The position numbers and the translations under genes were made by a program. Positions 14,137 to 39,822 of a stretch of 64,000 bases of DNA are shown one piece after another. The stretch's first letter is position 1, and each line of letters opens with the position of its first letter. The notes beneath the pieces are model-generated. The model did not search any database. It saw only the letters and a program-made list of their open reading frames with translations, and was not told the DNA's origin. This stretch comes from Jiangella gansuensis DSM 44835 (GTDB lineage: Bacteria; Actinomycetota; Actinomycetes; Jiangellales; Jiangellaceae). The DNA lies in the NCBI RefSeq assembly GCF_000515395.1, contig NZ_KI911782.1, positions 3,160,606 to 3,224,605 of the forward strand, given 5' to 3'.

Positions 14137-14175
14137 GCCCGCGTCCGGCGGCCGCCGTGGCCACCGGACGCGGGC
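14137..14175. terminator. Bidirectional hairpin between convergent genes
   Basis: Arms GCCCGCGTCCGG (14137-14148) and 14164-14175 pair perfectly over 12 bp with a 15-nt loop. It lies between the ends of the UvrA-like gene and the minus-strand small gene and probably terminates both. Confidence 0.65.
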
Positions 14176-14199
14176 GTCTACGTTGGGTTCCGCCCGCTG

Positions 14200-14466
14200 T
14201 CAGTCGCCGGGCGGCTCGGCGGGCAGGCCGCTGCGGTACTCCGCCCACGTCGGAAGCGGCTGGGCCGGTTCGTCCAGACGGACCCGCACGCTCTGGAACT
14301 CGTAGGCCAGCCGGCGTCGCCGCAGCTCCTCGGCGGCTTCGTCGGCGGCGGCGCGGGCGGACGCGGCGTCGGGATACTGCCGTTCGTCGATGGCGAAGGC
14401 CGCGGCGGGGCCGTCGTCGGTGGTCACGTAGCCGATCCAGACCCATGCGTGGTTGGTGCCGGTCAC
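14200..14466 (-). CDS. Small protein of unknown function, partner of the RelA/SpoT-domain protein
   Basis: 88 residues from a GTG that overlaps the stop of the upstream gene (GTGA), with AGGAG 8 nt before it, so translation is coupled. It opens with strands (HAWVWIGYVTT), has an Ala/Glu-rich helix (about 35-55) and an acidic end (PAEPPGD). No known domain is recognised. Coupling to a gene with a nucleotide-synthetase domain makes an antitoxin/immunity role the leading guess, but nothing in the sequence proves this. Confidence 0.6.
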   Translation of the reverse strand: MTGTNHAWVWIGYVTTDDGPAAAFAIDERQYPDAASARAAADEAAEELRRRRLAYEFQSVRVRLDEPAQPLPTWAEYRSGLPAEPPGD

Positions 14467-15779
14467 CGTTGCTCGCTCCTGGTCTCGTCCTGGTCGAGAG
14501 CGGCCGCCTCGGCCTGCATGCCACGCACCCGGTCCCGCTCGCCGTCGCCGACAGGCACGTACGGCTTGTAGACGGTGTTGTGCTCCAGGTCCGAGGCGAT
14601 CGAGGCGCGCCGCGTGCACAACTGTATTTCGAACGTGTAGGGAAGGCCGTCGAGGCTCGCCCCGATGATGAACGGAACCACGCGGTAGGCCGGGTTGTGC
14701 CGCTTGGGTTCGGCGTACATGTTCTCCATGTCCAGCACGTTTCCGCCGTCGCCGACGCCGTAGCGGTTCACGACGGCGGTGACGACGCCGGCCAGTTCGG
14801 CGGTGTCGCCGACGGTGATGCGCGCGCCGACCGCGTCGACGACCTCGCCGACGCGGTAGTCGGGCCGGCCGGGACGGTCGGCGCTGCCGGAAGACATGCG
14901 CTGGACCTTGTCGATGATCCCTTCGGTGTCCTTGACCCGCAGACTCACAGCGGCGTCGTCGAACGGCGCGGCCAGCGCTTCGAGTTCGGCGCGCACATAC
15001 GGCTGGACCTGCCGGCTCAGGCGTCGCACATAGTCGTCGAGCAGGGCACGCTCCTCACGCGTGGGTTCGGCCCCGATGGCGCGGGCGGGGTCGAGGTCGC
15101 GGGCGTGGGCGAGGAAGAGCTTCTTGCGGGATCGGCCGTCCGCGGTGGTGAGGGCCTCGGCCGGCACGGGTTCGAACAGCGGGCCGCGGCCGGGGTTCTC
15201 GGCGCGGTACTGCTCGAGCGTGCGTCCGGCGAGCGCACGGCCGTCGGCGAGTTCGCTCAGCATTGCGAGTGTGTGGTGACGCCGGCGCGGGTCGGCCAGC
15301 GCGCGGGTGAGGTCCAGCGGATGCGCCACGTCGGCGACGAGGCGCGCGACCAGCGCGGCGACGTCTGGGTGCGCCTCACCCAACGCGCCCTCGACGGCGG
15401 CGGCGACGTCGTCCGGCTCGGTCCGGCCGGCGGGCGTCGTGCCGGTTACCGCGGGCGTGCCGGCTGCCGTGGGCGTCTCGGGCGTGCCCGGCGCGCCCTC
15501 CAGCAGCGCGGTGAGGTCACGGACCTCGCCCGCGACCACGGCCGCGATGTCGCCGGACAGTCCGCGCACGATGTCGGCCATGGCCCTCCCGCCCCGGTCG
15601 ATCTCGTCCGGCAGCCCGCGTAGCGGCTGGTCGCGTACCGTTCGCAGCGGCGTGGTGATGCCGCCGGTCAGCCTCGTGATCTCGGCGGCCAGCGCGTCGG
15701 CTGCCGCCTCGGTCTCGCCGGGCAGCGCCGCCAGCGCCTCGGCCGCGGCGCGGATGGACCGGTCGGACACCCTGCTCAC
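14463..15779 (-). CDS. RelA/SpoT-domain nucleotide pyrophosphokinase-like protein (toxSAS or polymorphic-toxin candidate)
   Basis: 438 residues. Residues 1-95 are Ala-rich helices, 96-125 a Pro/Thr/Ala linker, and about 250-410 match the (p)ppGpp synthetase fold: RVKDTEGIIDKVQRM (281-295, with R281, K283, K291), VVDAVGARI (D315, R320), the loop NPAYR (Y365), FEIQLCT (E384, Q386) and DLEHNTVYKP. These correspond to the ATP-binding Arg/Lys set, metal Asp, G-loop Tyr and second metal Glu of RelA-family synthetases. No hydrolase, TGS or ACT domain exists, unlike housekeeping Rel. A helical N-terminus, linker and coupled small gene suggest a toxin. GTG start; a GTG three codons later is also possible. 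Confidence 0.75.
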   Translation of the reverse strand: MSRVSDRSIRAAAEALAALPGETEAAADALAAEITRLTGGITTPLRTVRDQPLRGLPDEIDRGGRAMADIVRGLSGDIAAVVAGEVRDLTALLEGAPGTPETPTAAGTPAVTGTTPAGRTEPDDVAAAVEGALGEAHPDVAALVARLVADVAHPLDLTRALADPRRRHHTLAMLSELADGRALAGRTLEQYRAENPGRGPLFEPVPAEALTTADGRSRKKLFLAHARDLDPARAIGAEPTREERALLDDYVRRLSRQVQPYVRAELEALAAPFDDAAVSLRVKDTEGIIDKVQRMSSGSADRPGRPDYRVGEVVDAVGARITVGDTAELAGVVTAVVNRYGVGDGGNVLDMENMYAEPKRHNPAYRVVPFIIGASLDGLPYTFEIQLCTRRASIASDLEHNTVYKPYVPVGDGERDRVRGMQAEAAALDQDETRSEQR

Positions 15780-15881: not shown

Positions 15882-16829
15882 TCAGCCGATGTCGACGACC
15901 GCTTTGACGAACCCGTCGGGCTTGGACCGCAGCGCCTCGAAGGCCTCGTCGATCTGGTCGAACCGGAAGCGGTGCGTGACCAGCCGGCCCACGTCGATGC
16001 GACCGGCGGCCAGGAGGCCCAGCGCGGCCTCCGTGCTGGCGCGCAGCATGGCCCGGTCACGGACGTGGGCGTTGACGACATCGAGGGCCTTCCAGTTCCA
16101 CGCGCGCACGTCGACCCGGCGGGTGGTCTGGTGGTAGCCGAGGATCGAGATCGCGCCGTGCGCGCGGACGAGCCTGGTTGCGAGGTCGAGCCCCGGTTGG
16201 GACCCGGACGCCTCCACGACCACGTCGAACCCGTGACCGGCGGGCGCATCATCGTCTGCGTACGCATGGCCGGGCACCTCTGCTGGTGAGTGGGCGGCGT
16301 CCGCACCGCTGGCCATCGCCGCGTGCCGGGCGTCCTCGCGGGGGTCGATCGCGATCAGCTGGGCTACTCCGGCGTTGCGCAGGAACTGGGTCATGAGCAG
16401 TCCCATGAAGCCGAGCCCGACGACGGCGACGCGCGCGCCGATCGGCACCGGGGTGCGCCGTAACCCTTCCGCGACGCATCCGAGCGGCTCGGGCAGCGCG
16501 GCCGCCGGATCCACCCCGGACGGGACGACCACGACGTCCTGCACGTCGGCGAGGGCCAGTTCGGCGAACGAGTGCGCGATCCGGCCCCCGACCAGGGTGT
16601 TCGGCGCGATCGTGACGCCCGGCCCGGCGGCGACGACCTCGCCCACGGGTTCGTGGCCCAGCCGGAGCGGCACCGTGCCGGTCGGGTTCGCCCAGGCCGG
16701 TAGGTCGCTCGCGCACACGCCGTTGGTGAGGACGCGTAGCAGTACCTGGCCGGGGCCGGGTTCGTCGACGTCGACGGTGGCGAGCTCGCCTCCGCCGGGT
16801 GCGGTGACGGTGTAGGCGCGAGTTCTCAT
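15882..16829 (-). CDS. Zinc-type medium-chain alcohol/polyol dehydrogenase
   Basis: 315 residues. The GroES-like half has the catalytic zinc ligands in GVCASDLPAW and GHEPVGEV; the Rossmann half has VAVVGLGFMG. The four-Cys structural zinc lobe is absent and the protein is about 30 residues shorter than typical family members. As last gene of the ROK-controlled sugar operon, starting in an ATGA overlap with the permease gene, it probably oxidises the imported polyol or sugar with NAD(P). The substrate cannot be read from sequence. Confidence 0.85.
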   Translation of the reverse strand: MRTRAYTVTAPGGGELATVDVDEPGPGQVLLRVLTNGVCASDLPAWANPTGTVPLRLGHEPVGEVVAAGPGVTIAPNTLVGGRIAHSFAELALADVQDVVVVPSGVDPAAALPEPLGCVAEGLRRTPVPIGARVAVVGLGFMGLLMTQFLRNAGVAQLIAIDPREDARHAAMASGADAAHSPAEVPGHAYADDDAPAGHGFDVVVEASGSQPGLDLATRLVRAHGAISILGYHQTTRRVDVRAWNWKALDVVNAHVRDRAMLRASTEAALGLLAAGRIDVGRLVTHRFRFDQIDEAFEALRSKPDGFVKAVVDIG

Positions 16830-17647
16830 TTGGTGGCTCCTGCGGTCAGGCCGGCGACGAACTGCCGGTTGAAGATCAGGTAGATGATCACGACGGGCAG
16901 TGAGGCGATGGTCGTGCCCGCGGCGAGCACGGCGGTGTCGGTGGTGAAGCGCCCCTGAAAGAACGTGAGGCCGATCGGCAGAGTGCGGACGTCGTCGGTC
17001 TGCAGGAAGAACAGCGGCACGATGAGCTCGTTCCACGACGTCATGAACTGGAAGACGACTATCGCGCCGAGCGCCGGTACCGCGAGCGGGCGTACCACGG
17101 ACCACATCAGCCGCAGGTCGCCGGCGCCGTCGATGCGCCCCGCCTCGATCAGCTCCCGGGGCAATGCGCGCAGGTTGGCTCGGAGCAGGAAGATCGCGAA
17201 CGGCAGGCCGAGTGCCGCCTCGACCAGGATCGCGCCGGTCAGTGTGTTCACAAGACCCAGGGAACGCATTTGGTGGAAGAGCGGGATGATGATCGACCAG
17301 ATCGGGATCATCAGTCCTAGCAGGAAGAGCATGAACGTCGCGTCCGCCCAGCGCACCCTGAGCACGGCGAGCGCATACGCGGCAGGGAAGGCCAGCGCGA
17401 CCACCAGCGCGACCGTCCCGGCGGCGACGATCGTGCTGTTGAGCAGGTAGTCGGCGAACCTTCCGGCGTTCCAGGCCGTGACGTAGTTCTCGAACCGCAA
17501 CGGCCACTCGAGCCCGAACGGGTTGGCGGCCGTCGCACTGGAGGTGCGCAGCGACTGCGCCCAGATCCAGACCAAAGGGACGATTGAGACGAGGGCCATC
17601 ACGACGAGCGCCGTGTGGATGCTCATCCGTTGCAGGGCGCGGTTCAC
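16826..17647 (-). CDS. ABC sugar transporter permease, MalG type
   Basis: 273 residues from a GTG that overlaps the stop of the partner permease (GTGA), with GGGAG about 5 nt upstream. Six membrane segments are apparent; the cytoplasmic EAA loop reads LIEAGRIDGAGDLRLMWSVVRPLAVP, which docks on the ATPase. No ATPase gene exists in this operon, so a shared MsiK-like ATPase encoded elsewhere is expected, as is usual in actinomycetes. Confidence 0.92.
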   Translation of the reverse strand: MNRALQRMSIHTALVVMALVSIVPLVWIWAQSLRTSSATAANPFGLEWPLRFENYVTAWNAGRFADYLLNSTIVAAGTVALVVALAFPAAYALAVLRVRWADATFMLFLLGLMIPIWSIIIPLFHQMRSLGLVNTLTGAILVEAALGLPFAIFLLRANLRALPRELIEAGRIDGAGDLRLMWSVVRPLAVPALGAIVVFQFMTSWNELIVPLFFLQTDDVRTLPIGLTFFQGRFTTDTAVLAAGTTIASLPVVIIYLIFNRQFVAGLTAGATK

Positions 17648-18597
17648 GGACGCTCCCTCTCTCGTACGCGGAGGAAGATCACGGTGATGATCAGGATGAT
17701 GACGGTGAGGACGACAGCGGCGGCCGCCGCATAACCCACGCGGTGGGTGACGAACGCCAATGCGTAGATGTAGTAGGCGACGACCTCGGTCGTGTGGCCA
17801 GGTCCTCCGTTGGTCATGACGTAGACCAAGTCGAAGGTCTTCAGGGTGTTGATGAAGGAGACAACGAGCAGGAGGGTGATGTGGTTGCGCAGGCCGGGCA
17901 CCGTGATGTGGCGGAACCGCTGCCGGGCGCCTGCGCCGTCGAGCGCAGCGGCCTCGTAGAGGTGAGGGTCGATGTTCTGCATGCCGCCGAGCAGGATCAC
18001 CATCGCGAACCCGTAGTAGGTCCAGTTCGCGGTCGCGATGACGGCGGCCATCGCGGTGCCGGACTCCGACAGCCAGCCCCGGGTGAGTGACTCCAGCCCG
18101 ATGCCCTCCAGCGCGACGTTCAGCAGGCCGGACGTGGGCTGGTAGATCTGGTCCCAGGCGATGCCGACGATGACGAGGGCCATCGTCGCCGGGATGAACA
18201 GCAGGGTGCGGAACAACGTCCGGCCGCGGATCCACGACACCGACAGCATGGCCGCGAGCAGCAGCCCGAGTCCCTGCGCGAGCCAGCTGCCGGCTACCCA
18301 GAGCAGGTTGTTGCCCAGTGATCCGAGGAAGCGGTCGTCCCCGGCGAGGCGCCGGTAGTTGTCCAGCCCCGTCCACGTGGGAGAAGCGGTGAGTCCGTTC
18401 CAGTCGGTGAGGCTGAGCCAGGCGGTCTGCCCGATCGGCCACAGCAGGAATCCTGCGTAGAGGGTGAGCGCCGGCAGGACGAGCCAGTACCCGCGCCATC
18501 CCCGCCCACCGCGGCGGGTGCCGCTGGACCGGGATGCTCCGGCGGGCGCGCGCGTGCGTGCAGTCGGCCGGCCGGCGGTGACGGCGGACGTCGTCAC
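17644..18597 (-). CDS. ABC sugar transporter permease, MalF type
   Basis: 317 residues with a basic, Arg/Thr-rich cytoplasmic N-terminus (1-35) followed by six membrane segments. The EAA motif is present as LYEAAALDGAGARQRFRHI. The GTG start overlaps the stop of the binding-protein gene (GTGA). It pairs with the MalG-type permease to form the channel of a carbohydrate importer. Confidence 0.92.
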   Translation of the reverse strand: MTTSAVTAGRPTARTRAPAGASRSSGTRRGGRGWRGYWLVLPALTLYAGFLLWPIGQTAWLSLTDWNGLTASPTWTGLDNYRRLAGDDRFLGSLGNNLLWVAGSWLAQGLGLLLAAMLSVSWIRGRTLFRTLLFIPATMALVIVGIAWDQIYQPTSGLLNVALEGIGLESLTRGWLSESGTAMAAVIATANWTYYGFAMVILLGGMQNIDPHLYEAAALDGAGARQRFRHITVPGLRNHITLLLVVSFINTLKTFDLVYVMTNGGPGHTTEVVAYYIYALAFVTHRVGYAAAAAVVLTVIILIITVIFLRVRERERP

Positions 18598-19946
18598 CGC
18601 GCCGCGTCCCTGGCCTCGTCGAGAGCGTCGTCGAGTGACCTGGTGAAGGTTGCCGCCTCGATCTCGCCGGTGAGGAAGGCCTGGGCGGCGCCGTTCCAGG
18701 CGTCGGTCACGAGGGGGCTGGAGCTGAACGCGGTCCAGCGCCCGATCCCGCCACCGTCGTTAGCTGCCCGGACGACCTCCAGGTTCTGCCGCAGCAGGGC
18801 CGGGACGTCCGCGTCGGTGCCGTCGTAGTCGGTGGTGGGCAGGACACCTGCCTCCAGCCACCGGCGTTCGGCCTCTGCGGAGAAGTGGACGAAGTCGATC
18901 CAGTCCGCGGCGATGTCCGCGACCGTGGAGGACGATGAGATCGCCCAGGACCCGCCGGCGCCTCCGGCTGCCTGCTGCTCCAGCGACGTGTCGATCATCG
19001 GGAACGGCACGAAGCGGATGGGGGAGTCGGGGCCGAGCGTGGCCAGCAGGTCCGGTGTGACCCCGGTACCTTCGATGAACATGCCGGCTTCGCCGTTCAT
19101 GAAGGCCTTCACCGAATCGTCGAAGCTGACGCCGTTGAAGTCGGGGGTGACGAATCCGCGCGCGACCCAGTCACGGGCGATGTCGAATGCTTCCTGGACG
19201 TTCCGTGCGCTGTAGGTCCCGTCCGAGTCGAGAGACTCATGCGCGACGATCTCGTCGGCCGGGACCGCCGCGTGCACGGCGGCTCCGACGAGGTGCGACG
19301 ACGGCCACTGGTCCTTGTTGCCGAAGGCGATCGGAGTCACCCCGGCCTGCGCCAGGGTCCGAGCCGCGGTCAGGAATGCCTCGTAGTCGGTAGGAACCGG
19401 CGCTCCGGTCTCGGTGAACAGGGCTTCGTTGTAGAACAGTCCGATCGCCTCGCTGGAGCGGGGGACCGCGTAGAACGTGTCGTCGAACGTCGCGCGTTCC
19501 ACGATGGACTCCGGCAGTCGGTCGAACCATCCGTACCGGTCGGCGTAGTCCTCCAGCGGGCGGACCAGTCCGTTGGTGGCCAGGACCCCGAGAGTGCTCT
19601 CGGACGCGTCGTAGTCGAAGACGTCGGGTGCCGAGCCCGACGCCAGGGCCGTTGGCAGTGTCTTCTGCAGGTCGTCGTAGCTGAGGTACTGGATGTCGAC
19701 CTGCACCTCCGGGTGCTCGCGTTCCCAGTCAGCGCTGAGTGCCTCCAACACCGGTTGCAGAGCAGGCGTGTCGCCGAACTGGCTGACGATCGTCAGCGTC
19801 GCCTCCTCACCGAGGGTGACGCTCTGGGTGTCCTCGGGTTGGGTACCGCCGACGCATGAGGCCGGGACGAGTGCAGCGGCCGCTGTCAGGGCGAGGATCG
19901 GTACCGGCCGGCGGCCGAGCCGGTGACGGGTGGTGGCGATGGGCAT
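18594..19946 (-). CDS. Extracellular sugar-binding lipoprotein of an ABC importer
   Basis: 450 residues from ATG 19946, chosen for AGGAGG 5 nt upstream; an upstream in-frame ATG at 20012 lacks this. A basic N-region, hydrophobic stretch and Cys (ALVPASCVGG) mark a lipoprotein signal, although the lipobox is not canonical. The mature part is a family-1 solute-binding protein (EATLTIVSQFGDTP; later WPSSHLVGAA and FMNGEAGMFIEGTG). It would capture a sugar outside the membrane and deliver it to the two permeases. Confidence 0.9.
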   Translation of the reverse strand: MPIATTRHRLGRRPVPILALTAAAALVPASCVGGTQPEDTQSVTLGEEATLTIVSQFGDTPALQPVLEALSADWEREHPEVQVDIQYLSYDDLQKTLPTALASGSAPDVFDYDASESTLGVLATNGLVRPLEDYADRYGWFDRLPESIVERATFDDTFYAVPRSSEAIGLFYNEALFTETGAPVPTDYEAFLTAARTLAQAGVTPIAFGNKDQWPSSHLVGAAVHAAVPADEIVAHESLDSDGTYSARNVQEAFDIARDWVARGFVTPDFNGVSFDDSVKAFMNGEAGMFIEGTGVTPDLLATLGPDSPIRFVPFPMIDTSLEQQAAGGAGGSWAISSSSTVADIAADWIDFVHFSAEAERRWLEAGVLPTTDYDGTDADVPALLRQNLEVVRAANDGGGIGRWTAFSSSPLVTDAWNGAAQAFLTGEIEAATFTRSLDDALDEARDAAR

Positions 19947-19998
19947 CGTTGCCTCCTGGACGTGGGCCGCGGCTGCGGCATCGAGGGTCTGGCCGGGA

Positions 19999-21072
19999 TC
20001 AGCCGGCGTCACGGTCCTCCGCCCTCGCGGGCCGGGTGATCAGCCGCCGCGCCGCCGCATCCACGAGCGCGACGTGCCGGGCGGCGTCGGTGAAGGACGG
20101 CAGTGGTGTCGTGCTCTTCGTTGCCGTTCCGAGCAGTGGCCCGTAGAACGCGCCGAACAGCGCGGTGATCCTCGCGTCGGCGTCGACCGGGGTGCGCCAG
20201 AGTCGGCTCACCCGGTGCGGGTTCGCGTGGCCGTCCAGGCGCAGTCGCCGCGCGTCGGCGGCGCGTACGAGCTCGAGCGTCTCTCGGTCGCCGAGCTCCC
20301 AGCCGGCGGTGCCCTCGTCGCCGTCGACCTCGACAGCGAGCGTGTTCATGTGTCCCGGTGACACCTGAGACAACGTCAGCGAGATCACGCCGCCGCCGCT
20401 GAGGCGGGCCAGGGCGATGCAGACGTCGTCGGCGCCGGAGCGGAGGGTGGTTGCGCGCAAGGTGAGGAAGTCGGCCTCGATCGAGGTGATCCACTGGCCC
20501 GTCATGACCTCGACCAGGTCCATCACGTGGCTGCCGATGTCGGCGAGCACGCGCGATCCGCCGGACCGCGCCGGATCGGTTCGCCAGGACTCCTCGGCGC
20601 CGAGCTGCCAGTTCTGCAGGTAGTGCGCCCGGACGCTGTGCACCTTGCCGAGCAGGCCGGACCGGACCAGTCCGGCGAGTCGCTCCGCCAGCGGCGCGTA
20701 CCGGTAGTGCTACCCGACCGTCGAGGCGGTGGCCGAGGCCCGCGCCAGGGCGGCGAGGCCTGCCGCGTCAGCAGCGGTGGTGGCCAGGGGTTTCTCGCAG
20801 ACTACGTGCAGGCCGGCTGCAAAGGCCGCTCGCGCGGCCGGGACGTGCCGGTCGTTGGGCGTGCAGAGATGGATCGCGTCCAGCTCACCCGCGTCGATGA
20901 GCTCGTGCTCCGAGGCGAACGCGGCCGGTACGTCGAGCCTTTTTGCGGCGCGCGCGGCCGACTCACGGGTGGAGCCGCTCACCGCGACCACCTCGACGCC
21001 CGCAATCCGCCGCAATGCGGCGACGTGTGCGGCCCCGACGCCCGATGCGCCGGCCACGCCTACCCGGATCAC
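19999..21072 (-). pseudogene. Gfo/Idh/MocA family oxidoreductase with an in-frame amber codon
   Basis: The frame from GTG 21072 encodes a Rossmann domain (VIRVGVAGASGVGAAHVAALRR, VVCEKPLATT), then hits TAG at 20710-20712. Immediately after it the same frame continues HYRYAPLAERLAGLVRSGLLGKVHSV and on through the C-terminal domain to 19999. Family members often have Tyr or Phe at this point, so one base change (TAC/TAT to TAG) is the simplest explanation. Without readthrough only a truncated N-domain forms, though re-initiation at GTG 20643 is conceivable. It is the second gene of the ROK operon, in a GTGA overlap with the regulator. Confidence 0.85.
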
Positions 21073-22295
21073 TCGGCGCCCACCGTCGTGGTGGTGGACG
21101 TGCGCAGCCGGGTGAGGGTGTCGCCGAGCGCCGCGGGAGTGGTGAGCTCCTCGACGGTCATGACGGCGGCGCCGAGGATCGCCGCGTCGGGGCCCAGCTC
21201 GGACGGCACGATCCGCAGGTCGCGGGTGGCCAGTGCCAGGGAACGCCGGTAGATGGTCTCGCGGATTCGGGCGAGGAAAGCGTCGCCGCCGCTTGCCACG
21301 CCCCCGGTCACGACGAGGACCGCAGGGTTGAAGAAGTCGACGAGAACCGACAGGACGGTCCCGATGTCCTCGGCCGCCTCGCCGAGGATCCGCCGGCAGT
21401 CCTCGTCGCCCAGCTGTGCGAGCTGGGCCACGAGTTGGGCGGTGATCGGTCCCTCCGCGGCGGCGGCGGCCAAGCCGGTGCTCTGACCGCTGATGGCCAG
21501 CAGTTCCGCGCGCGCGGCGATGTCGTCGCCACCCGCAGTGGTGACGAGGCTCCCGGCGCTTCCCTGCGCGCCACGGTGCAGCCGGCCGTTGGAGATCAGG
21601 CCGGCCCCGACCCACGACCCGATCTTCACCACGAGGGAGTCCGCGACCTTTGCACCGGCTCCCTGGTGCTGCTCGGCCAGTGCCATCAGGTTGACCTCGT
21701 TGTCTGCCCAGGCCGGCACGCCGAACCGCACGGCGAGGCGGTCCCGGACCGGCTGGTCGTGCCAGTCGGGGTGCACGGGCGGCTGGACGGTGCGGCCAGT
21801 CGCGAATTCAACGGGGCCGGCGATCCCGGCGCCGATGCCGCACAGGGCCAACGCGTCTCCTGCGGCCTCCTGCGCGCGATTCAGCTGCCGTTCCACGAGC
21901 GTCTCCAACGTGGCCAACACCGGCTCCGGCCCCTGCCGCATCGACAGGGGGAGCTTCTCGTCGGCCAGGATCCGACCGGTGAGAGTGACCACGGCGGCCC
22001 GGACATGAGTCATCGCGACCTCCGCGGCGACGACCACCAGGTTGGAGCGGAACCGGATCCGGGTGGCGCGCCGTCCGCCGGTGCTGCCGAATGCGCCCGC
22101 CTCCTCCAGCAGCCCTGCGCCGACGAGGGATCGGATCCGCTCGGAGACGACGGCCTTACTCAGGCCGGTGGCCGCGCCGATCTCCGCCCGGGAGGCTCCG
22201 TCCTGCGACGAGCGGATGACGCCGACCATCGCGGCCGCGCTGGCGATGGCTCCACCATCGTTCTTCGTCGGCCGGACCGGCCGTGGATCGCTCAT
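21069..22295 (-). CDS. ROK family transcriptional repressor
   Basis: 408 residues: N-terminal winged helix (about 20-80, SRAEIGAATGLSKAVVSERIR), then a sugar-kinase-like ROK domain with GIGAGIAGPV and VVTGGVASGGDAF. The CxCGxxGCxE zinc motif of classical ROK kinases is missing; the matching stretch is HRGAQGSAGSLVTT, so a sensing rather than kinase role is likely. First gene of the minus-strand sugar operon and presumably its repressor, released by the imported sugar. Confidence 0.9.
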   Translation of the reverse strand: MSDPRPVRPTKNDGGAIASAAAMVGVIRSSQDGASRAEIGAATGLSKAVVSERIRSLVGAGLLEEAGAFGSTGGRRATRIRFRSNLVVVAAEVAMTHVRAAVVTLTGRILADEKLPLSMRQGPEPVLATLETLVERQLNRAQEAAGDALALCGIGAGIAGPVEFATGRTVQPPVHPDWHDQPVRDRLAVRFGVPAWADNEVNLMALAEQHQGAGAKVADSLVVKIGSWVGAGLISNGRLHRGAQGSAGSLVTTAGGDDIAARAELLAISGQSTGLAAAAAEGPITAQLVAQLAQLGDEDCRRILGEAAEDIGTVLSVLVDFFNPAVLVVTGGVASGGDAFLARIRETIYRRSLALATRDLRIVPSELGPDAAILGAAVMTVEELTTPAALGDTLTRLRTSTTTTVGAE

Positions 22296-22923: not shown

Positions 22924-25725
22924 ATGAGTCGAGGTTTGCGCACCATGCTCGCTCTGGCCGCCGTCGTGGTCACCTCCGCTGCCGTCCTGCCATCCGGCTC
23001 GGCACCCGCGTCAGCGGCGACCGGCTCAGCCGCCGTCGACGCCGGACCCGTGCTGTGGCTGCCGACGGGGTCGTTCGCCAGCTCGTCGTTCGTCCGGGTG
23101 GAGCGCGACGCCGGCCCCGGCGCGCCGGTCCGGAACGGCGAGGCCCTCCGGCTGGAGTCCCCGGCCGGCGGGCGCGGCTCCGCTCAGCTCGCGGTGCACG
23201 CTCCGGACGGGCTCGCCGGGCTGTCCGTGTCGGTGGGCCAGTTGCGTTCCCGGCACGGCGGTGCGCTGCCTGCCGGCGCCGTCCAGGTGCGGTACCCGCA
23301 GTTCATCCCGTTCGACTCCGGTGGTGTCGTGGCCGACCCCTTGCGGGAGACCGACGCCGTCGACGTGCCCGAGAACGCGAACCAGCCGATCTGGTTCACG
23401 GTCGACATTCCAGGCGATGCCGCGCCGGGGGCCTATACGGCCACCGTGGAGGTCGCCGCCGACGGCGCTGAGCTCGGCCGGTGGCCGCTGCAGGTGATCG
23501 TCGCCGACGCCGCCGTGGAGCCGATGGTCGACCGGCCGTTCATGTTGGACCTCTGGGCGCACCCGGACGCCGTCGCCGACCAGACAGGCACCGCACTGTG
23601 GAGCGAGGAGCACTGGGCGGCACTGCGTCCGTACCTGCGTGACCTCGCGGTTCACGGCCAGCGGGTGGTCAACGTCGCCGTCACCGAGGACCCGTGGATG
23701 GTGGACCACCAGGGCCAGTGGCGGCCACAGACGTGGAGTCACTTCGCCTCCACGGTCGAGTGGCGCTGGGACGGCGAGCGGTTCGACTTCGACTTCAGCG
23801 TGTTCGACCGCTACGTGGAGGAGTCCCGGGCGGCCGGCATCGGAGAACGCATCCACGCCTTCGCGATGCTCCAGTTCGACCACCGCGAGCGTTTCGTCTA
23901 CACCGACACCCGAACGGGCGAGCGGGTGGTCGAGGAGGTCGACCTCGGCGACGAGCGCTACCGGGACGGCTGGGGCCAGTTCCTGGACGCGTTCACCGAG
24001 CACCTGACCGAGCGCGGCTGGTTCGACGACGCGTCGCTCGGCTTCGACGAGCGGCCGGCGAACGAGATGGAAGTGGTGTTCGACGTCCTCGCCGACGAGG
24101 CGCCGCAGTGGCTGGACAAGGTCGCGATCGCCGCCAACAGCCTGGACGTGCAGGACTTCGCCGAGTACGTCAGCTACAACTACTCGTTCCTGGACAGCGT
24201 GCCGGACGAGGACATCGCCCAGCGCCGGGCCGAGGGCAAGCCGACCCTGTTCTACACCTACTTCAACCCGCTGCGGCCCAACACGGTGACCGCCTCGCCG
24301 CCGGTCTCGGCGCGGGTACTGGGCTGGGTGGTCGCACAGAAGAACCTCGACGGCTACCTGCGCTGGACCTACAACTCGTGGCCCGAGGACGTCTACGCCG
24401 ACCCCAGCTTCCGCTACGGCCAGGGCGACGAGTATATCGTCTACCCGGGCGAGGACGGGCCGGTCTCGTCGATCCGCTGGGAGACGTTCACCGACGGCCT
24501 GGACGACGCCGAGCTGCTGCGGCTCTACGCCGAGCGTTACGGCCGCGACGACCCGCTGTTCACCCAGGTCCTCGACGCGATCGACCCGCGGGCGGAGAGC
24601 AGCGCGCCGGCGTGGTCGGCGATGCTGCTGGGCCGGCACGCCGTCGTCGACGGGCTGCGTCCGGACGGAGACCTGACCGTCGCCGTGTCCCGGCCGGACT
24701 CCGAAGTGGTCACGGGCGACACCGTCGAGTTGACCGTCACCGCGACGGCCAGCGGTGAGCGTCCGGTGCCGTCGCCCCGACTGGACCTGCCCGACCAGCC
24801 CGGCTGGTCCGCGCAGGTGGTGTCCGCGCCGCGGCCGGGTGCGCTGCTGCCGGGAGAGCAGGCCAGCTGGACCGTGCGGGTCACCGTCGACGACGACGCC
24901 GGCGGCTACCTGTACCTCGGTGGCGCGGTGACCGACCCGGGCGGGCGGACCCGCGCGGACTTCGCGACCGACCTGACGGTCCGGCCGCCGGTGGAGCTGA
25001 CCGGCCCGCCGGCCGCCTCGCCCGCCAGCTCGCCGGACGCGACGGCCCCGGTCACCGTGACGGTGCCGGTGGCCAACGCGTCGAGCCAGGAGCAGGCCGT
25101 CGACCTGGTCGTGGGCAACCTCGGGTTCTGGCAGACCGACACGCCGACGTCGCGGGTGACGGTCCCGCCGGGGGAGACCGTGGACGCGACGGTGGAACTG
25201 CGGCCGGAGGGCCGGACCGGGTGGACCACCGTCACGGCCGAGATCCGGCACGGTGGCGCCACCATCGGCAGCGGCCGGGTCGACATCGTCTCCGGCGGGC
25301 GGCACGTGTCCGAGTGGGAATGGGCGTCGGAGACGAACGGCTGGGGACCGGCCGAACGCAACACCAGCAACGGCGAGGATCAGCCCGGCGACGGCGCCCG
25401 GATGACCATCAACGGCCGCGAGTACGGCGTCGGCGTCGGGGTCCACGCGCCGTCGCGGATCACCCTGGACCTGGCCGGCAGCTGCACCCGGTTCCAGACC
25501 GACATCGGTCTCGACGACGAGGTGGCCGGCGGGAGCATCCGGTTCCGGGTCGAGGCCGACGGCCGGGAGATCTTCGCCTCGCCGGTCATGACGCAGACCT
25601 CGGCCGCGCGCTGGGTCGACCTGGACGTGACCGGCGTGCGGGAGCTGGCTCTCGTCGTCGACGACGGCGGCGACGGCGTCGCGCGCGACCACGGCAACTG
25701 GGCCGGCGCCTGGCTGCGCTGCTGA
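22924..25725 (+). CDS. Secreted multidomain glycoside hydrolase (GH123/DUF4091-like catalytic region, C-terminal NPCBM domain)
   Basis: 933 residues with a signal peptide (about 1-32, ending SAPASA). Residues 35-195 form a beta-rich N-domain; about 200-560 a TIM-barrel region with MLDLWAHPDAV, GFDERPANEM and YLRWTYNSWPEDVYADP, resembling GH123-like enzymes; two beta-sandwich segments follow (about 590-790). The last ~130 residues (GRMTINGREYGVGVGVHAPS-like) match NPCBM galactose-binding domains. In GH123 adjacent acids drive substrate-assisted hydrolysis; DE in GFDER could serve but this is inferred. AGGAG precedes the ATG. It probably attacks N-acetyl-galactosaminyl or related surface glycans. 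Confidence 0.75.
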   Translation: MSRGLRTMLALAAVVVTSAAVLPSGSAPASAATGSAAVDAGPVLWLPTGSFASSSFVRVERDAGPGAPVRNGEALRLESPAGGRGSAQLAVHAPDGLAGLSVSVGQLRSRHGGALPAGAVQVRYPQFIPFDSGGVVADPLRETDAVDVPENANQPIWFTVDIPGDAAPGAYTATVEVAADGAELGRWPLQVIVADAAVEPMVDRPFMLDLWAHPDAVADQTGTALWSEEHWAALRPYLRDLAVHGQRVVNVAVTEDPWMVDHQGQWRPQTWSHFASTVEWRWDGERFDFDFSVFDRYVEESRAAGIGERIHAFAMLQFDHRERFVYTDTRTGERVVEEVDLGDERYRDGWGQFLDAFTEHLTERGWFDDASLGFDERPANEMEVVFDVLADEAPQWLDKVAIAANSLDVQDFAEYVSYNYSFLDSVPDEDIAQRRAEGKPTLFYTYFNPLRPNTVTASPPVSARVLGWVVAQKNLDGYLRWTYNSWPEDVYADPSFRYGQGDEYIVYPGEDGPVSSIRWETFTDGLDDAELLRLYAERYGRDDPLFTQVLDAIDPRAESSAPAWSAMLLGRHAVVDGLRPDGDLTVAVSRPDSEVVTGDTVELTVTATASGERPVPSPRLDLPDQPGWSAQVVSAPRPGALLPGEQASWTVRVTVDDDAGGYLYLGGAVTDPGGRTRADFATDLTVRPPVELTGPPAASPASSPDATAPVTVTVPVANASSQEQAVDLVVGNLGFWQTDTPTSRVTVPPGETVDATVELRPEGRTGWTTVTAEIRHGGATIGSGRVDIVSGGRHVSEWEWASETNGWGPAERNTSNGEDQPGDGARMTINGREYGVGVGVHAPSRITLDLAGSCTRFQTDIGLDDEVAGGSIRFRVEADGREIFASPVMTQTSAARWVDLDVTGVRELALVVDDGGDGVARDHGNWAGAWLRC

Positions 25726-37828: not shown

Positions 37829-38779
37829 GTGACAGAGACACCATCCCACCCGTCGCGCGAGCCCGGCGACGCCGAGACCCGGTCGGCGCCGCCGTGCCTG
37901 GACCGGCTGCGTCAGGCCCGGCCGGAGCTGAGCGGTGCCCGCGCGCGGGTCGCCGACACCGTCCTCACCGACCCGTGGAAGGTGCGTGGCGCCTCCATCC
38001 AGGTGCTGGCGCAGATGGCCGGCGTCTCAGAGAACGCGGTCAGCCGGTTCACCCACGCGCTCGGCTACAGCGGGTACCGCGAGTTCGCCCAGGCACTGTC
38101 ACTGGACCTGGGCAAGACGCTCGGTCTGTACCACTCGCACCCCGTTGACCTGGCGCTGGAGTCGCGCTCCGGACTCGGTGGGCCGCTGGACCTCGTGCAG
38201 CGGGTCATGGCACTCGAGGTGGAGTGCATGCAGGACACGCTGGCGAACCTCTCCGAGCCGGCGCTGCGGCACGTGGTCCACCGGCTGGCCGCGGCGCCCG
38301 CCGTGCTGCTGGTCGGCACGGGCACGGCCGCGCCGCTGTGCCAGATGCTCGCCTACCGCCTGGCCAGCGTCGGGGTGCCGGTCACCTGGACCGCCGATCC
38401 GATGATGATGCTCGCGCACGTGACCCGGCTGAGCCCGGGTGACCTGGTGTTCGGCATCTCGTACTCCGGCCGGTCGCGGGACACCGTCCAGGCGCTGATG
38501 TACGCCAAGGAGCGCGGCGTGGAGACCGTCGGGCTGACCGCCAACCCGCAGTCGCCCATCGGCGACGTCACCGACGCGTCGCTCACCATCTTCAGTTCCG
38601 CGGTCTCCCGCGGCACCGCCCAGTTCGGCGCCCGGGTGGCCGGTCTCGCCCTCCTCGAAGCCATCGCGACCGCGGTGTCGGAGGAGAAGGGCGGCGGCTC
38701 CACGCACGAGCTGGAGGAGCTCGGCGCCACCCAGGCCCGGTTCAACGACCTGCCGTCGGACTGGCGGGGCGAGTCGTGA
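37829..38779 (+). CDS. RpiR/MurR family regulator with SIS domain
   Basis: 316 residues from GTG 37829 (GAGGAG 6 nt upstream). N-terminal helix-turn-helix (about 35-100, SIQVLAQMAGVSENAVSRFTHALGYSGY) and a SIS sugar-phosphate-binding domain (about 140-290, VLLVGTGTAAPLCQMLAYRL, FGISYSGRSRDT). Such regulators sense phosphosugars. It sits between the P450 system and the transport genes, with a GTGA overlap to the next gene, so it probably controls the whole operon and perhaps the sialidase-like gene. Confidence 0.93.
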   Translation: MTETPSHPSREPGDAETRSAPPCLDRLRQARPELSGARARVADTVLTDPWKVRGASIQVLAQMAGVSENAVSRFTHALGYSGYREFAQALSLDLGKTLGLYHSHPVDLALESRSGLGGPLDLVQRVMALEVECMQDTLANLSEPALRHVVHRLAAAPAVLLVGTGTAAPLCQMLAYRLASVGVPVTWTADPMMMLAHVTRLSPGDLVFGISYSGRSRDTVQALMYAKERGVETVGLTANPQSPIGDVTDASLTIFSSAVSRGTAQFGARVAGLALLEAIATAVSEEKGGGSTHELEELGATQARFNDLPSDWRGES

Positions 38780-39822
38780 CCGACGCCGCGCTGCGGATGA
38801 GTATCGCCGGGGTCGGGCACTGGCACGCGCCGCGGCACGTCGAGGCGTTCGTCGCCGCCGGCGCCACCGTCGTCGCGGTGCAGGACGACGCCGCCGCCAC
38901 CGCCGAGCGCTGGGCGGTCAGGCTGGCCTGTGCGGCCGAACCGACCCTGGACGACCTGCTCGAGCGTCACGACGTCGACCTGGTGCTCGCCATGCCCCGC
39001 CACCGCGGCGCCCCGTCCGTCGTCGGCCGGCTCGTCGAGCACGGAACGCCGTTCGTGGTGGAGAAGCCCGCCGCCGCGAGCGCCGCGGACCTGTGGCCCC
39101 TGGTGCACGCCGCCGAAGCGGCCGGCCGGTTCGCCGCGGTGCCGCTGATCAACCGGTACAGCTCGTTCTGGGAGCAGGTCCAGCGGCTGCGGGGCGAGGG
39201 GCTGCTCGACCCCACCACGGTCGCGCGCTTCCGCATTGTCAACGGGTCACCGGACCGCTACGTCGAGGACGACGTGGGCTGGGTGCTCGACCCGGACGTC
39301 AGCGGCGGGGGAGCGCTGCGCAACCTCGGCCCGCATCCAGTGGATGCCTTCCTGTCGCTGGCCGCCGGCGAGGTCAGCGTGCTCGGCGCGGCGCTGTCGC
39401 ACCGGCAGCACGCGTTGCCGGTCGAGGAACACGCCGTCGCCCTGCTGCGTGACGAGGCGGGGCTCATCGGGCTGGTGGAAGTGGGCTACAGCGGCCCCGA
39501 CCGTGACGGCACCGACCACGAGTGGGCGCTGACCGGCGCCGGCTCGTCCGTGCGTGAGCTGCACGACGTCGTCGAGGTCAGCACCGGCTCGGGCACCGTC
39601 ACGATCGCGTCGCCGTCGGTGATGCAGCGCTACCAGATCTTCGCCGCCGACGTCGTCGACCGGCTCCGTACCGGCCGCCCCGCGCCGGTCACCCTGCGCG
39701 AGGCGTGCCGCGCCCTCGACGTCATCGATCGCATCTACGCCGCGGCCGCCACCACGACCGGTACCGCGGTGCCGGCCCTGACACCGGCCGCACCAGGCCC
39801 CAACGAAGGAGAGATCCCATGA
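38776..39822 (+). CDS. Gfo/Idh/MocA family NAD(P)-dependent oxidoreductase
   Basis: 348 residues. N-terminal Rossmann domain (MSIAGVGHWHAPRHVEAF), the conserved FVVEKPAAAS with the catalytic Lys, and C-terminal GALRNLGPHPVDAFLSL with the active-site His. These enzymes oxidise sugar hydroxyls. Unlike the homologous gene of the ROK operon this one is intact. It is coupled to the RpiR gene upstream and the binding-protein gene downstream by 4-bp overlaps. Confidence 0.92.
   Translation: MTDAALRMSIAGVGHWHAPRHVEAFVAAGATVVAVQDDAAATAERWAVRLACAAEPTLDDLLERHDVDLVLAMPRHRGAPSVVGRLVEHGTPFVVEKPAAASAADLWPLVHAAEAAGRFAAVPLINRYSSFWEQVQRLRGEGLLDPTTVARFRIVNGSPDRYVEDDVGWVLDPDVSGGGALRNLGPHPVDAFLSLAAGEVSVLGAALSHRQHALPVEEHAVALLRDEAGLIGLVEVGYSGPDRDGTDHEWALTGAGSSVRELHDVVEVSTGSGTVTIASPSVMQRYQIFAADVVDRLRTGRPAPVTLREACRALDVIDRIYAAAATTTGTAVPALTPAAPGPNEGEIP

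Follow-up and report, generated by a model that had tools for sequence, protein, structure and literature searches.

An in-frame amber codon, probably a recent nonsense mutation, in a Gfo/Idh/MocA oxidoreductase gene of Jiangella gansuensis

The window, a 64,000-nucleotide stretch of DNA from the soil bacterium Jiangella gansuensis, whose genome is a single contig, contains a Gfo/Idh/MocA oxidoreductase gene that is split by a single amber codon. This raises the question of whether the stop has inactivated the gene, whether it is an error of the assembly, or whether the cell finds a way around it. We compared the gene with its orthologues, examined the constraint acting on it and its operon, and looked at the assembly and at the decoding of amber codons in this genome.

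The interrupted frame and its operon

The Gfo/Idh frame lies on the minus strand between 21072 and 19999 and has 357 codons. It runs from a GTG at 21072, which overlaps the stop codon (TGA) of ROK, to a TGA at 20001-19999. There is one internal stop, the TAG at 20712-20710 (CTA on the plus strand), which is codon 121. A sequence-only reading of this DNA had described a single amber codon splitting the gene, with family-like sequence before and after it and no other damage, and all of this was confirmed. PF01408 was matched before the stop, PF22725 and PF02894 after it, and all three exceeded their curated Pfam cut-offs (24, 27 and 22.9 bits, respectively). When the frame is read through the stop, the matches span residues 2-120, 132-256 and 135-342. 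The stop is thus positioned at the boundary of the NAD-binding and C-terminal domains, directly after the end of the PF01408 match at residue 120. No second lesion was seen in the frame, so the inactivity of the gene would depend on the stop alone.

The other five frames across the same span contain 11, 4, 1, 4 and 8 stops. Since some of them also have few stops, openness by itself is not the main evidence for a gene. However, both halves match Pfam domains and the orthologues align without an internal stop, and the frame is therefore a real gene carrying one stop and not a chance open frame. Residues E93, K94 and P95, as well as D178 and H182, are unchanged in the window and in four congeners. 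We take the EKP motif and the D and H of the C-terminal domain to be the motif residues of the Gfo/Idh/MocA family. Both domains and the motif residues of the family are present, while the single uninterrupted frame is missing because of the TAG at codon 121.

Among solved chains, the best-scoring profile match of the product was the Gfo/Idh/MocA chain 4h3v, an oxidoreductase domain protein (positions 4-269 of 348, E 1.2e-38), followed by 3v5n and then 6a3f. In contrast to these solved oxidoreductases, the window gene has its reading frame broken at codon 121. The best NCBIfam match was levoglucosan dehydrogenase (NF052479), whose 114.7 bits are far under the curated equivalog cut-off of 650. 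The equivalog families gave only sub-cut-off matches from which to read a substrate.

The gene is the second of an operon with the order ROK regulator, Gfo/Idh, sugar-binding protein (SBP), permease 1, permease 2 and zinc-type (MDR) dehydrogenase (ADH). These genes stand together in four congeners (G006, G008, G010 and G001), where the ROK regulator is 81-84 % and the MDR dehydrogenase 74-77 % identical. In a genome of another genus (G016), a stretch of about 4 kb holds ROK, Gfo/Idh and SBP in the window order. The five other operon genes of the window are all open.

Table 1. Coordinates of the interrupted gene and of the other operon genes in the window.
Feature	Position	Strand	Evidence
ROK-family regulator, intact, first gene of the conserved operon	21069..22295	-	PF00480 116.2 bits
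Gfo/Idh codons 1-120, Rossmann NAD-binding domain	20713..21072	-	PF01408 79.6 bits, residues 2-120
In-frame TAG, codon 121 of Gfo/Idh	20710..20712	-	Tyr in 5/5 orthologues compared
Gfo/Idh codons 122-357 and TGA, C-terminal domain	19999..20709	-	PF22725 81.9 bits, PF02894 58.5 bits
ABC sugar-binding protein (SBP), intact	18594..19946	-	PF01547 100.6 bits, scanned as the longer frame 18594-20012
ABC permease 1, intact	17644..18597	-	PF00528 63.3 bits
ABC permease 2, intact	16826..17647	-	PF00528 62.4 bits
Zinc-type (MDR) dehydrogenase (ADH), intact, last operon gene	15882..16829	-	PF00107 44.2 bits, PF08240 38.2 bits

Several features of the neighbourhood were also recorded. The 3' end of the Gfo/Idh gene (19947-20040) has about 10 extra residues compared with three congeners, and the end in G010 is likewise extended. 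The gap between Gfo/Idh and SBP is 52 bases in the window versus 9-15 bases in G006, G008 and G001. A scan of 19900-20760 found nothing promoter-like, and its single terminator-like site was on the opposite strand, although such a scan is uninformative for an actinobacterium. A GH123-family glycosidase gene with an NPCBM domain (22924-25725, plus strand) is divergent upstream of the operon. Nothing in the stretches compared from the relatives matched it at E <= 1e-15; in G008 this covers under 1 kb on the upstream side of ROK, where the contig ends. A candidate open frame of 488 residues at 14157-15623 (plus strand) had no Pfam match at E <= 0.001.

Orthologues and selective constraint

The congener search covered 12 genomes of the genus, the window's own included. 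Orthologues were found in G006, G008, G010 and G001 (78, 76, 75 and 74 % identical, respectively), and they aligned over residues 1-345 or 1-346 with one gap position each. The remaining seven of the 11 other genomes had no orthologue, and their best-scoring Gfo/Idh matches, among the matches listed, were 35-37 % identical. When 22 genomes of the family were searched with a profile at E <= 1e-60, we obtained six loci, namely the window gene, the four congeners and G016, whose orthologue is 58 % identical with two gap positions and no internal stop. The nearest named loci belong to J. muralis (76 %) and J. endophytica (77 %). J. gansuensis itself is represented by one strain, compared with congeners.

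All five orthologues are free of internal stops. The tyrosine at codon 121 is encoded by TAC in four of them and by TAT in one. Codon 120 of the window gene, beside the stop, also differs from all five. An apparent conservation of the amber codon in G006 was dismissed, as the one TAG counted there, at codon 349, is where that gene normally terminates, and the gene has no internal stop.

We calculated dN/dS with a Nei-Gojobori script for window-congener and congener-congener pairs. The Gfo/Idh gene gave 0.25-0.30 against 0.17-0.29 among congeners, and ADH gave 0.28-0.33 against 0.18-0.22. The corresponding ranges were 0.24-0.29 and 0.24-0.31 for SBP and 0.15-0.18 and 0.10-0.20 for ROK, while the window-congener values of permeases 1 and 2 were 0.19-0.22 and 0.13-0.15. 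Next to this, we counted changes at deeply conserved residues, defined as those invariant in the four congeners and G016, with codon 121 excluded for Gfo/Idh. The window had changed 11 of 192 such residues in Gfo/Idh, one of them codon 120 adjoining the stop. The corresponding counts were 14/280 for ROK (p=0.83) and 14/265 for SBP (p=0.84). At these sites there was no excess change, and hence no sign of decay around the stop, relative to the intact ROK and SBP genes.

When invariance was required in the four congeners alone, again without codon 121, the window had changed 51 of 300 residues in Gfo/Idh versus 35 of 344 in ROK (p=0.014). The difference from SBP (43/367) was marginal (p=0.057), and the intact ADH gene was the same as Gfo/Idh (46/267, p=1.0). 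Changes before and after the stop were alike (16/106 and 35/194, p=0.63). Together with the dN/dS values, the excess over ROK hints at a slightly relaxed constraint on Gfo/Idh, and this relaxation may be common to Gfo/Idh and ADH. The data fit a gene kept under selection through almost the whole history of its lineage, with a stop that arose late or is absent in the cell. The lack of detectable erosion at the deep sites is what would be expected if the inactivation is recent.

Assembly error and the decoding of the amber codon

The main alternative is that the Illumina-based ALLPATHS assembly has a wrong consensus base at the TAG and that the gene of the living strain is intact. A gene without extra erosion at deeply conserved sites would fit this as well. 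Codon 121 lies within a 5-bp inverted repeat, and inverted repeats are a source of Illumina errors. However, stems of at least 5 bp cover 16 % of the gene positions and a stem of 5 remains with another base substituted, so the repeat is weak evidence. The stop might also have been created when the polymerase switched templates at an imperfect palindrome, as it sits in this stem of 5 bp and, of six bases, three depart from those in most orthologues. But given these stem results, and since at least three changes occur in 29 of the 426 six-base windows that cover congener-identical sites of the gene, this origin was rejected as not significant.

The genome was sequenced on Illumina/454 platforms and assembled with ALLPATHS, and the genome report gives the fold coverage as 'Unknown' and the finishing quality as 'Non-contiguous Finished', which leaves room for an error, while the roughly 4 Gb sequenced for a genome of 5.5 Mb speak against it (PMC5292007). 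Genome completeness is 99.93 %. Among the matches listed, no internal stop was present in the matched stretches of the genome's 150 matches to the permease domain PF00528 (150 of 174 first-look candidates were scored) or of its 51 matches to PF00106, the short-chain dehydrogenases, and among the best of the 29 Gfo/Idh matches solely this gene had a stop. A base error would also have to adjoin another difference, codon 120, which is unlike all five orthologues. We therefore regard a base-calling error as unlikely, and less likely than a recent mutation. Elsewhere in the genome, outside the window, a short-chain dehydrogenase is found in two same-strand pieces 54 bases apart (G000:C1:4038933-4039526), which suggests an insertion in its domain.

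A regulated full-length enzyme would result if codon 121 were read through, either in a programmed way or by a suppressor tRNA, and a lone stop at a domain boundary in otherwise preserved coding sequence is what such readthrough would leave. But the stop is shared by none of the five orthologues compared. None of the 46 tRNA matches of the genome, read with ARAGORN, has a CUA anticodon (the tRNA reported with anticodon 'tag' is tRNA-Leu), PylS had no match in the genome, and release factor 1 (RF1) is present at C1:1567425-1568492, over the cut-off and with no internal stop. With neither a conserved stop nor a CUA tRNA or PylS decoder, the gene does not resemble a readthrough gene, and we find this explanation extremely improbable.

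The stop directly after the PF01408 match and an in-frame GTG at codon 144 (20643) could also indicate two cistrons, an NAD-binding half and a restarted C-terminal half, possibly forming a working split enzyme. No Shine-Dalgarno-like sequence was seen by inspection before this GTG, a restart there would drop residues 122-143, and the five orthologues compared are all unsplit, which makes two cistrons the least probable of the explanations considered. It is very unlikely, too, that a low level of readthrough or restart still supplies working enzyme and so makes the boundary amber tolerable, the stop then being a down-tuner of expression and not a null.

The same reading had proposed that a homologue in the P450 operon (38776-39822) might compensate for the loss. 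Its 29 % identity over just 157 residues argues against this. Compensation by a close paralogue was also rejected, as the genome's two top-scoring paralogues, among the matches listed, are 34 % and 36 % identical. Since similar-scoring matches occur in other genomes of the genus, these paralogues are probably older, separate genes.

Proposed origin and consequences of the stop

Of the three origins that had been offered, recent mutation is the best supported, with the stop absent from five orthologues and no erosion at deep sites; sequencing error is less likely and readthrough found no support. We consider it likely, with a probability of roughly 0.8, that a recent single-codon nonsense mutation inactivated the Gfo/Idh gene of a conserved six-gene carbohydrate operon in J. 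gansuensis. Of the 71 one-step nonsense changes possible in this gene, 44 yield TAG. RF1 would end translation at codon 121, and the product would be an inactive NAD-binding fragment of 120 residues that lacks the C-terminal domain. Codons 122-357 are expected to stay untranslated. Between the stop and the start codon of SBP (19946), 763 nt of mRNA would go untranslated, which makes a polar reduction of the transporter genes plausible and their polar loss possible. The gene is probably dispensable and its loss tolerated, because most congeners examined have no Gfo/Idh orthologue.

Ordinary bacterial nonsense pseudogenes resemble the window gene in having one unshared in-frame stop, intact copies elsewhere and a pseudogene-bearing genome. 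The window gene differs from them in showing no erosion at deep sites, and would be very young if real. We read the feature as a nonsense allele of the ordinary kind, probably of recent date, in a carbohydrate gene that is probably dispensable. A search of the available literature found no paper on nonsense pseudogenes in Jiangella or on amber codons in J. gansuensis. For J. gansuensis YIM 002T, the genome report gives 5,585,780 bp with 149 pseudogenes, and a genome size below that of other species of Jiangella (PMC5292007). The probable loss of one carbohydrate-pathway step in J. gansuensis fits this published reduced genome. If real, the interrupted gene would show in clean form what a very young pseudogene looks like, which is of use for annotation.
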